Shown here one piece after another: positions 39,007 through 40,423 of a DNA stretch of 64,000 bases (its first letter is position 1; each line of letters starts with the position of its first letter). The position numbers and the translations under genes are program-made. The stretch is from Flavobacterium kayseriense. Its GTDB lineage: Bacteria; Bacteroidota; Bacteroidia; Flavobacteriales; Flavobacteriaceae. The notes under the pieces are model-generated. The model did not search any database and was not told where the DNA came from. It was given only the letters and a program-made list of their open reading frames with translations. The DNA lies in assembly GCF_014305095.1 (NCBI RefSeq), contig NZ_JACRUI010000002.1:310001-374000 (forward strand), written 5' to 3'.

Positions 39007-39370
39007 TGATATAAAAAAGTTTTACATAAAACAAGCGAACGTACGCTAAAAATACAAAATAATAATTATGATTTAATTCGCTGCATTTTTAAAGAGTACA
39101 GAAATTGCAGTTAATAAATTTCAATTACTGTAGAACGGACTGAAATTAGATTTATTTAAGAACATTTGATAACTACCAAAATAACACAGGCTCAATATCA
39201 AAGACTTACGACATTATCTAATTACAACCAGAATTAACTCGCAAAAGCTTCGGCTAAAACAAAAACTTGAAAAAGGTTAAAAAGAACCAAATTCACACTC
39301 TCACATTAAGTACTAATTTGAAGACAAAAAAAACAAGAATCAACGAATCAAAGTCTTTTTAAGTAGGACA
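39007..39370. other. Intergenic region between aceB and the tRNA/GIY-YIG repeats
   Basis: 364 bases, AT-rich; no gene and no strong structure. It should hold the aceBA promoter, but no exact TTG-N19-TAnnTTTG match is visible on the minus strand. Confidence 0.5.
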
Positions 39371-39376
39371 TAAAAA

Positions 39377-39403
39377 AAACCTTCTTGGCTTACAAGAAGG
39401 TTT
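39377..39403 (-). terminator. Terminator of repeat unit 1
   Basis: An 11-bp perfect stem (39377-39387 with 39393-39403), a 5-base loop, and a T run on the minus strand. The same hairpin recurs at 39734-39760 and 40090-40116. Confidence 0.88.
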
Positions 39404-39472
39404 TGGTCGGGGTGGCAGGATTCGAACCTGCGGCCATCCCGGTTTTCAATCGGGACTCAATAAACGAGCCTA
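39404..39472 (-). pseudogene. Truncated tRNA-like remnant 1 (anticodon GAA, Pro-type T arm)
   Basis: On the minus strand this begins at tRNA position 8 (TAGGCTC...), and has a decayed D arm, an anticodon arm CCCGA-TTGAAAA-CCGGG (GAA, Phe-like, with an A-C mismatch), a perfect T arm GCAGG-TTCGAAT-CCTGC, and the 3' acceptor strand CACCCCG with A and encoded CCA. The 5' acceptor strand (CGGGGTG expected) is missing; instead the end of a GIY-YIG gene stands there. From the T arm to the terminator it is almost identical to tRNA-Pro. It cannot fold a normal acceptor stem. Confidence 0.8.
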
Positions 39473-39715
39473 TTTTGAAATTAGTTCAATAATCTTAACA
39501 CTACTTTTCCAGTTTTTAATTTCCTTTTCGCGCAAAATTGCTTTTGTTTTATCGTCAATCAATTCGAAATAAACAACCTCCCAGTCTTTAGCACTTCCGG
39601 TAAAACCTTTATGTGAACTCAAATGGCGGCGCAATCTTTCAGACAATTCCATTACAGTGTAACCAATGTGAATCTTGTCAATGGATTTTGAGTACAAAAT
39701 ACAAACGTAAAACAT
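39470..39715 (-). CDS. GIY-YIG nuclease-domain protein, copy 1
   Basis: An 81-residue protein that is almost only a GIY-YIG domain. The first strand is MFYVCILYSKS, the second motif is DKIHIGYT (GIY and YIG both degenerate to VCI and HIG), the Arg helix is LSERLRRHLSSH (about 25-36), and the catalytic Glu and Asn are in ILREKEIKNWKSS. This is the YhbQ/UPF0213-like small class, often annotated as an excinuclease C-like endonuclease. The start is the ATG at 39715, only about 20 bases after the terminator of unit 2. Its stop codon TAG is the U8-A9-G10 of the tRNA remnant. Confidence 0.85.
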   Translation of the reverse strand: MFYVCILYSKSIDKIHIGYTVMELSERLRRHLSSHKGFTGSAKDWEVVYFELIDDKTKAILREKEIKNWKSSVKIIELISK

Positions 39716-39733
39716 GATTTGTAGAAATAAAAA

Positions 39734-39760
39734 AAACCTTCTTGGATCACAAGAAGGTTT
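39734..39760 (-). terminator. Terminator of repeat unit 2
   Basis: The same 11-bp stem as in unit 1 (39734-39744 with 39750-39760), loop GATCA rather than GCTTA. It stands between tRNA-like remnant 2 and the start of GIY-YIG copy 1. Confidence 0.88.
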
Positions 39761-39829
39761 TGGTCGGGGCGGCAAGATTCGAACCTGCGGCCTTCCCGGT
39801 TTTCAATCGGGACGCAATAAACGAGCCTA
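39761..39829 (-). pseudogene. Truncated tRNA-like remnant 2 (anticodon GAA)
   Basis: The same layout as remnant 1: starts at U8 (TAGGCTCG), decayed D arm, anticodon arm with loop TTGAAAA, T arm GCAGG-TTCGAAT-CTTGC (one G-U), acceptor 3' strand CGCCCCG, A and encoded CCA. The 5' acceptor strand is absent. The extra C/T changes in the T arm and acceptor show no selection for the matching tRNA-Pro sequence. Confidence 0.8.
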
Positions 39830-40072
39830 TTTCGAAATTAGTTCAATAATCTTGGCACTACTTTTCCAGTTTTTAATTTCCTTTTCGCACAAAATTGCTT
39901 TTGTTTTATCGTCAATCAACTCGAAATAAACAACCTCCCAATCTTTAGCCCTTCCGGCAAAACCTTTATGCGAACTCAAATGGCGGCGCAATCTTTCAGA
40001 CAATTCCATTACAGTGTAACCAATGTCAAACTTGTCAATGGATTTTGAGTACAAAATACAAACGTAAAACAT
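39827..40072 (-). CDS. GIY-YIG nuclease-domain protein, copy 2
   Basis: An 81-residue paralogue of copy 1. It differs at a handful of positions: DKFDIGYT for DKIHIGYT, GFAGRAKDW for GFTGSAKDW, ILCEKEIK for ILREKEIK and SSAK for SSVK. The Arg helix and the Glu of EKEIKNW are kept. The reading frame is intact in both copies, so both are probably under selection or recent. The start is about 18 bases after the tRNA-Pro terminator, with no recognisable own promoter, so it may be read by leakage through that terminator. The stop TAG again coincides with U8-A9-G10 of the remnant. Confidence 0.85.
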   Translation of the reverse strand: MFYVCILYSKSIDKFDIGYTVMELSERLRRHLSSHKGFAGRAKDWEVVYFELIDDKTKAILCEKEIKNWKSSAKIIELISK

Positions 40073-40089
40073 GATTTGTAGAAATAAAA

Positions 40090-40116
40090 AAACCTTCTTG
40101 GCTTACAAGAAGGTTT
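40090..40116 (-). terminator. Terminator after tRNA-Pro
   Basis: An 11-bp stem (40090-40100 with 40106-40116), loop GCTTA, then T on the minus strand. It is identical in its arms to the terminators of both repeat units. Confidence 0.9.
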
Positions 40117-40119
40117 TAG

Positions 40120-40194
40120 TCGGGGTGGCAGGATTCGAACCTGCGGCCTCCTGCTCCCAAAGCAGGCGCGATAACCGAGCTACGCTACACCCCG
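40120..40194 (-). tRNA. tRNA-Pro (anticodon TGG)
   Basis: A complete 75-base tRNA: acceptor CGGGGTG with CACCCCG, anticodon arm CCTGC-TTTGGGA-GCAGG (TGG), T arm GCAGG-TTCGAAT-CCTGC, discriminator A, no encoded CCA (CTA follows). Its T arm, acceptor 3' strand and terminator are the source of, or share an origin with, the two truncated remnants downstream. Confidence 0.95.
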
Positions 40195-40204
40195 CAATCG
40201 GCTG

Positions 40205-40234
40205 CAAATATACAATTCTTTTTTCCTTAAACAA
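40205..40234 (-). promoter_or_regulatory. Promoter of tRNA-Pro
   Basis: On the minus strand TTG (40234-40232), a 19-base spacer, and TATATTTG (40212-40205) form an exact promoter 11 bases before the tRNA 5' end. It may also drive the GIY-YIG genes by read-through. Confidence 0.78.
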
Positions 40235-40423
40235 GTAAATAAAAAATTTATATTTAAAGTAAATTTTGATTGACAAAGCTAAATAGTTCTCTCACAAATC
40301 TTACAATTTACAAATAAACCTACAAGCCTCTACACGTAAAAAGATCTTTAACAATTGTTAACAAAATAGATTTTCAGAAACCATAATAAATTGTATTTTT
40401 ACGGTTCAAAATTTAGAAAATAA

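Follow-up and report, generated by a model that had tools for sequence, protein, structure and literature searches.

A candidate minimal selfish element of Bacteroidota that joins a GIY-YIG nuclease gene to a hairpin-scarred copy of its host tRNA gene

We describe a locus behind a tRNA-Pro gene of Flavobacterium kayseriense, in a stretch of 64,000 nucleotides (nt) of contig NZ_JACRUI010000002.1 (assembly GCF_014305095.1, positions 310,001 to 374,000), called the window below. Taken as a whole, and with a probability of roughly 0.6, we read it as an array of two units, now decayed, that belongs to a minimal selfish element of Bacteroidota, in which a GIY-YIG nuclease would home to one tRNA gene while that tRNA is kept intact beside a scarred copy. 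In its active form the element would consist of one single-domain GIY-YIG gene and the scarred copy of the host tRNA gene. Across the family, two direct copies of a single tRNA enclose the gene; one is intact, and in the other a palindrome takes the place of a segment, most often the anticodon arm. Isoacceptor and nuclease clade go together; units are found in tandem, and some relatives lack them. The name tRNA* is used here for the degenerate, scarred copy of the host tRNA downstream of a nuclease open reading frame (ORF).

All features of the window locus lie on the minus strand. The host is an intact tRNA-Pro with anticodon TGG (40119..40194), called by ARAGORN and matched by Rfam RF00005 at 69.2 bits. 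Its terminator (copy 1, 40086..40117), an intrinsic-terminator-like hairpin AAAACCTTCTTG...CAAGAAGGTTTTTTT read from the sequence, reappears at the end of every unit. The tRNA is followed on its 3′ side by two direct units, which measure 356 and 357 bp by unit alignment and are each composed of a leader, an 81-codon ORF, a tRNA* that starts within the TAG stop codon of the ORF, and a terminator copy. The first unit holds ORF 1 (39827..40072), tRNA*-1 (39761..39829) and terminator copy 2 (39729..39761); the second holds ORF 2 (39470..39715), tRNA*-2 (39404..39472) and terminator copy 3 (39372..39404), where the array ends. Each tRNA* is a degenerate tRNA-Pro copy with an encoded CCA, and in each the anticodon arm is replaced by the hairpin TCCCGATTGAAAACCGGGA (39794..39812 in tRNA*-1, imperfect and also covered by the stem-pairing analysis; 39437..39455 in tRNA*-2). 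The two 81-residue proteins are 93% identical and match PF01541 at 39.6 and 44.9 bits, against a curated cut-off of 22.6. Besides these ORFs the units contain just short overlapping frames, and no integrase gene was found in them. A scan of 39300-40260 with Rfam at E <= 1 listed no group I intron and matched neither tRNA* to the tRNA family; tRNA*-2 gave a tmRNA match below threshold (12.4 bits, cut-off 47). The ORF starts 13 nt past the T run of the terminator, which suggests that the window ORF is probably made by low-level read-through.

A first-pass annotation of this DNA had proposed the same layout, tRNA-Pro followed by two units with an ORF, a tRNA remnant and a terminator, and that much holds; the units measure 356 and 357 bp, and what had been taken for a truncated tRNA 3′ end is a hairpin-bearing tRNA copy. 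The "anticodon arm" reported to read GAA turns out to be the hairpin TCCCGATTGAAAACCGGGA standing in place of that arm. We rejected a tRNA-Phe origin of the arm, since other isoacceptors carry the hairpin in the same position.

Relatives were drawn from genome collections with one genome per species, and 253 pooled loci gave 274 ORFs distinct by sequence. An intact tRNA on the same strand ends less than 150 nt upstream of 136 of these ORFs. Fifteen isoacceptors are represented, Val-TAC (53), Arg-TCT (16), Met-CAT (14), Pro-TGG (13), Asp (9), Asn (7), Ala-GGC (6), Arg-ACG (5), Gly (4), Phe, Pro-CGG and Lys (2 each) and Thr, Ser and Leu (1 each), a mix partly shaped by the queries used. For these counts the tRNA pool was cleaned of mis-called pseudo-tRNAs, and six odd rows were left out. 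The opposite strand is free of intact tRNAs over 150 nt on either side of all 274 ORFs. An intact tRNA or a tRNA-like stretch (score of at least 30) was present on at least one side of 264 ORFs and on neither side of 10. Six of the 10, three each at loci L057 and L170, adjoin tRNA-Asn* and tRNA-Phe* by eye; of the remaining four, two are single rows from L163 and L220, and two are genes of the window's genome (L001 and L002) that we take to be YhbQ-like. With neither a tRNA nor a tRNA-like neighbour, L001 and L002 serve as a natural negative. Five loci show a mirror form, with an intact tRNA downstream and none intact upstream; at four (L126, L141, L153, L186) a tRNA 5′ part with a palindrome can be seen upstream by eye, and the fifth (L191) is less clear.

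Among the 127 ORFs with at least 100 nt of downstream sequence, 116 are followed by a tRNA-like stretch scoring at least 30, against a maximum of 27 in dinucleotide shuffles (n=55), and in 118 of the 127 the downstream copy fits the isotype of the upstream tRNA strictly best. For 115 of the 127 the tRNA* could be aligned with its parent. A new inverted repeat of at least 6 bp, not present in the parent tRNA, was found in 103 of these 115, compared with 109 of 1150 shuffled regions. The tRNA* is changed at one place, and the intact tRNA next door is unaltered. CCG..CGG is present in 113 of 122 palindromes, which vary elsewhere. Several of the 12 tRNA* without a perfect palindrome show near-palindromes by eye, the window among them: tRNA*-1 scored "none" in the perfect-palindrome test because the hairpin TCCCGATTGAAAACCGGGA is imperfect. 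This hairpin has the form TCCCG...CGGGA, an imperfect local version of the palindrome that replaces the anticodon arm in related elements at several isoacceptors.

The position of the scar is typical of the isoacceptor. Both Lys elements and most elements of Val, Pro, Arg and Ala have it at the anticodon arm, starting at nt 25-28 and ending at nt 43-46. In Met it occupies nt 37-49 in 8 of 12 elements, and for Asp 6 of 7 palindromes fall in the T arm, at nt 50-60. A second palindrome, located in the T arm, is present in some elements. The target named at first, tRNA 3′ ends in general, is on these positions probably wrong. Pairing within the stem was assessed on 60 replaced segments, picked regardless of pairing and in part trimmed imprecisely, which lowers the pair counts. 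In a control that re-paired the arms within isotypes 200 times, and that keeps no phylogeny, no round reached the pairing frequency seen at stem levels 2, 6 and 7; the outer stem pairs are nearly constant.

Each protein clade within the window's family belongs to one tRNA. This family (f1) comprises 38 proteins and 7 isoacceptors with 6 isoacceptor changes, the fewest possible, where shuffled labels gave at least 17. On a tree of 130 of the 136 tRNA-linked proteins, built by a quick method from 81 columns and with 69 of 127 inner branches unresolved, we counted 35 isoacceptor changes; the shuffled minimum was 71, or 62 when shuffling was confined to family labels. When the nearest relative is sought under a different family code, it shares the isoacceptor in 42 of 84 cases (chance 9.4). 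The ratio of nonsynonymous to synonymous substitution rates (dN/dS) is below 0.5 in all 177 close pairs, with a median of 0.10, and ranges from 0.04 to 0.18 in 23 independent pairs, in many of which dS is high. These uniformly low ratios indicate that the family is under selection as a protein.

Strong purifying selection of this kind is also what would be expected if the protein acted at the RNA level in a host function such as defence, quality control or regulation, with tRNA or tRNA-like RNA as its substrate and the tRNA* in the transcript as a partner or decoy. The co-orientation of the genes with the tRNA agrees with this, as do the weak PADLOC matches of some members (UzuA in 2 of 9, and two PDC-S14 models in 1 each; no PADLOC family matched the ORF 1 protein of the window) and the fact that some tRNA* still pass ARAGORN as odd tRNAs. 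Judging from their positions, however, most Asp and Met scars lie where the tRNA fold should break, and the window tRNA* do not score as tRNA. Units without an ORF exist, and patchy presence with changes in copy number fits a selfish element better, so we consider an RNA-level function distinctly unlikely. As a separate observation, the anticodons that ARAGORN sometimes assigns to hairpin-bearing tRNA* include Ile-TAT, Glu, selenocysteine (SeC), Stop, some Lys and others, and such mis-called tRNA* are a possible source of wrong tRNA annotation in Bacteroidota.

Occupancy was compared at the tRNA-Pro loci. A 342-bp query was matched over its whole length in 7 of 121 genomes. At these syntenic loci the window's genome (G000) has two units, G031 one and G105 two, and in G074, G005, G051 and G025 no unit occurs in the ~500 nt after the tRNA-Pro. 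One tRNA-Pro site, whose next gene is trxB-like by eye, is occupied in G031 and empty in G051, G025, G113 and G019; it thus has the occupied and empty alleles expected of a free-standing homing endonuclease element. The G031 unit measures 353 bp, and its direct repeat of ~84 bp, with one mismatch, extends from right after the hairpin through the tRNA 3′ half, the terminator and the leader into the first bases of the ORF. For a tRNA-Val element of G079, looking for a second empty site by means of its right flank gave no informative relative in 150 genomes. The first-pass annotation had said that the same arrangement at the same tRNA in all relatives, with fixed copy number and no copies at other tRNAs, would speak for an old fixed locus; we find otherwise, because unit number varies, empty sites exist and copies sit at other tRNAs.

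Compared with foreign tRNAs, the 3′ third of the tRNA* matched the local tRNA strictly best in 77 of 108 cases and equally well in 23. A 45-nt trailer that includes the terminator is recopied in 82 of 125 loci, where the best of 20 foreign trailers reaches the same score in 9. The proposal that each insertion restores a terminator therefore holds to the extent of these 82 loci. Left and right trailers agree in 68 of the 90 loci where both could be cut out. Among loci with differing trailers, left-left sharing was seen in 3 of 76 pairs and right-right sharing in 1, which gives no support for a terminator borne by the element.

Tandem ORFs were found at 18 of 80 named, 25 of 69 phylum-level and 10 of 30 genus-level loci, counted among the top matches in partly overlapping sets with short flanks, and number up to seven (G139). 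The copies within one array are near identical. Together with the 15 isoacceptors and the varying unit number at syntenic tRNA-Pro, this bears out the earlier idea of a tRNA-directed, tandem-expanding unit. Some units have no ORF: two hairpin-bearing tRNA-Arg copies lie behind tRNA-Arg(TCT) in the window's genome (L260, G000:C6:194500-195800), and another such unit lies behind tRNA-Asn in G096. We also noted tandem tRNA-Ala* and tRNA-Met* copies upstream of intact tRNA-Ala and tRNA-Met (L267 in G297 and L272 in G258), 72 and 93 bp apart and with no room for an ORF seen between them.

Near-identical copies and ~84-bp direct repeats, which permit unequal recombination, are also what passive tandem duplication would give, that is, an ordinary GIY-YIG gene that once landed by a tRNA and was multiplied by recombination between tRNA copies. 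Such a history leaves the isoacceptor-typical palindrome, the linkage of clades to isoacceptors and the uniform orientation unexplained; already disfavoured by recurrence at many isoacceptors, it seems to us very improbable. The same repeats look like attL/attR, and the anticodon and T arms are reportedly integrase targets, so that the unit might be a cassette mobilized in trans, via tRNA 3′-end repeats, by tRNA-specific tyrosine integrases of phages or islands. The window unit has no integrase, and the scar palindrome and the clade-isoacceptor linkage would again be unexplained. Plasmid and phage records contained no match to the window protein, and in viral contigs the closer profile of Pro- and Arg-type members gave 29 pattern hits, none confirmed. 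Mobilization of this kind is accordingly given very little weight here, and carriage by phages or plasmids was rejected on the same search results.

Under the reading of a selfish element that homes to one tRNA gene, the structure observed is exactly what would arise if an unoccupied tRNA gene were broken at the scar position and then repaired from a copy that bears the element. The nuclease would cut tRNA genes of its own type where the palindrome now marks the site. From the left side of the break, which carries the tRNA 5′ half, copying from an element-bearing tRNA would proceed across the intact tRNA, the terminator, the ORF and the scar; the right side, with the tRNA 3′ half, terminator and flank, would anneal to the 3′ half of the tRNA*. 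Repair would then insert the unit, keep an intact tRNA, duplicate the 3′ half and terminator, and leave a scarred copy that can no longer be cut. Arrays could grow by recutting of the intact copy beside an existing unit or by plain unequal recombination.

The predicted fold is a bare GIY-YIG domain with a model confidence (pLDDT) of 88. No sequence relative of the window protein was found in the PDB at 0.01; by Foldseek the nearest solved folds are GIY-YIG proteins, with 1zg2 and 6seh as top matches, namely BH0048 (E 0.008) and the branched-DNA nuclease Slx1 (E 0.034), both at probability 1.00. A bare domain with these neighbours would leave room for a hairpin-directed enzyme. This raises an alternative akin to RAYT/REP systems, in which a structure-specific, Slx1-like nuclease acts on hairpins and the palindrome itself plays an active role, in recognition or transfer, entering the hairpin arms of tRNA genes and perhaps spreading as a dispersed repeat. 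The retention of pairing at levels 2, 6 and 7 while some pairs change would suit it. So would the ~20-fold excess of TCCCGAT..ATCGGGA over a reversed control in 296 genomes (949 versus 46), its rise in number with ORF number (rho 0.49), and the position of L001 and L002 among short repeats. Yet some genomes with at least 10 hairpins have 0-2 ORF matches, the palindrome varies outside CCG..CGG, and both the correlation and the re-pairing control ignore phylogeny. Several hairpins of the window's genome resemble ordinary terminators by eye, and for that reason we dropped the idea that all dispersed hairpins are mobile. On balance this alternative seems to us tentative and rather unlikely. Its fullest form is equally doubtful: a structure-specific single-domain GIY-YIG nuclease would target the hairpin arms of one tRNA gene and swap the arm of the redundant copy for a functional, covarying palindrome. 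The result would be a minimal mobile element of a new class, equivalent to RAYT/REP but built on GIY-YIG, that multiplies in tRNA-anchored arrays and may seed palindromes across Bacteroidota genomes.

Some dispersed repeats deserve description in their own right. The sequence TCCCGATAGCTATCGGGA and its variants are dispersed in G006 (40 sites), G250, G341, G227 and others, and some copies in G006 lie within larger imperfect palindromes, as judged by eye with genes not annotated. L001 (G000:C3:466605-466823) sits inside an array of short repeats GAGCGGAGTCGAGAATCT in the same orientation (G000:C3:465399-467403); with at most 1 mismatch, 15 of the genome's 20 sites are within ~1.3 kb of L001, which resembles a RAYT/REP arrangement. 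L002 (G000:C1:657780-658001) is flanked by an inverted pair of GAGGAACGAAGCATCT at 657699 (+) and 658074 (-), and the window's genome has 9 sites of this sequence with at most 1 mismatch.

In 240 of the 274 ORFs, the window copies included, position 5 is Tyr in 229, position 16 is Tyr in 236, R27 is kept in 237 and E63 in 239. We take positions 5 and 16 to be the GIY and YIG active-site tyrosines, and the Arg and Glu presumably belong to the active site as well; the UvrC mutants Y19F and Y29F named in structure titles fit the tyrosine assignment. The window copies keep the Arg and Glu and have Cys at position 5 and, at position 16, Asp (ORF 1) or His (ORF 2). The family as a whole thus has the two tyrosines, Arg and Glu of an active enzyme, and the window copies do not. 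From these residues, both appear to be GIY-YIG-domain proteins that are probably catalytically dead, and the window array is probably inactive because both conserved tyrosines are lost. The genes had been called intact; their frames are indeed open, and it is catalysis that is probably gone. A third tRNA-linked GIY-YIG gene of the same genome (L004, G000:C1:696533-696745) keeps both tyrosines; it lies behind a partial tRNA-Asn, and after it come two copies whose T arm holds TCCCGATAGCTATCGGGA.

Relatives are widespread in the phylum. At the genus level, 72 of 150 genomes, the window's included, have a relative at E <= 1e-5, many spaced 360-400 bp apart. At the phylum level, 191 of 296 genomes match a nine-member profile at E <= 1e-6, a count that takes in general YhbQ-like proteins and scores at most 18 candidates per genome. 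In named genomes, the profile of Pro- and Arg-type members confirmed 149 relatives, and the best 80 of these all belong to Bacteroidota (Flavobacteriia 38, Chitinophagia 17, Bacteroidia 10, Saprospiria 5, class unnamed 10), with hosts that include Flavobacterium glycines, F. flevense, F. hibernum, Chryseobacterium, Gelidibacter and Taibaiella. Of these 80 named loci, 76 yielded a new distinct ORF, 53 with an intact tRNA upstream.

Several points weigh against a selfish element that homes to a single tRNA gene. Neither cleavage nor movement was seen, in collections with a single genome for each species, and the window's own copies are without either tyrosine. The usual self-protection of a homing allele is missing, because insertion leaves the intact tRNA uninterrupted, and the 81-residue model has no separate DNA-binding domain. 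The match between nuclease and tRNA is imperfect: the whole tree, in which many forks are unresolved, needs 35 changes where 14 would be the minimum (an excess of 21), 11 of the 127 ORFs have no tRNA-like copy scoring at least 30, in 9 of 127 the own isotype is not strictly the best fit, and a foreign tRNA beats the local one for 8 of 108 tRNA*. Finally, the position of the palindrome is mixed in Asn, Gly and Phe, stem levels 1, 3, 4, 5 and 8 are not above the re-pairing control, and the conserved hairpin exceeds what mere loss of a cut site needs.

Searches of an open library, which lacks most subscription papers and all bioRxiv preprints, listed no description of the family. The terms Flavobacter and Bacteroid do not occur in the accessible text of a GIY-YIG survey (PMC1564403) or in that of a paper on tRNA fragments (PMC9897764). 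If the reading of a minimal tRNA-homing element is correct, a large phylum carries an unnoticed family of selfish genes on essential tRNA genes, which are kept working while the family evolves isoacceptor by isoacceptor. It would be a cellular counterpart of phage SegB and would account for many of the small GIY-YIG genes and unusual tRNA pseudogenes that Bacteroidota carry. How a nuclease homes into an essential gene without killing its host would become a testable question, and isoacceptor-linked nucleases of 80 residues could help to show how GIY-YIG enzymes recognize their targets.

The family would be a kind of free-standing homing-type GIY-YIG element, and it shares features with several known systems. 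Islands and prophages at tRNA genes are likewise flanked by a direct repeat of the tRNA 3′ part and keep an intact tRNA; the present unit differs in its size of ~350-400 bp, its one nuclease gene without an integrase, its tandem arrays and the palindrome in the second tRNA copy. tRNA anticodon arms are sites of group I introns, and a weak TIGR01453 match in 4 of 9 members recalls the introns that carry GIY-YIG enzymes, but the window units contain no Rfam intron and the intact tRNA is uninterrupted. UPF0213/YhbQ-like proteins and Slx1 have the same fold, as the best matches 1zg2 and 6seh indicate, whereas the YhbQ-like L001 and L002 have no tRNA or tRNA-like stretch alongside. In RAYT/REP (REPIN) systems, a single nuclease gene is linked with palindromic repeats, some of them dispersed in the genome, and the nuclease is an HUH tyrosine transposase. 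The present family resembles them in its single nuclease gene and palindromes, but its protein has the GIY-YIG fold, it is tied to tRNAs, and its link to dispersed palindromes is correlative.

The closest analogue is phage SegB. According to the passages of the T-even phage study available to us, SegB is a free-standing GIY-YIG gene beside tRNAs, as in the window family, and the homing enzyme of phage T6 cuts within tRNA genes and drives tandem amplification of the segment that holds tRNA and nuclease (PMC13096335). The motif RAWTSGAAC is given there for 23 of 83 cleavage sites (PMC13096335). By our own comparison, not the paper's, this motif agrees with the tRNA T-loop consensus GTTCGAATC when that is reverse-complemented, an agreement that may explain the preference of SegB for tRNAs. 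SegB differs in being phage-borne, and the same passages report no isotype preference and describe no scarred tRNA copy or palindrome (PMC13096335). The present family, in which the window protein has no relative in phage records, is by contrast chromosomal, single-domain and isoacceptor-linked.

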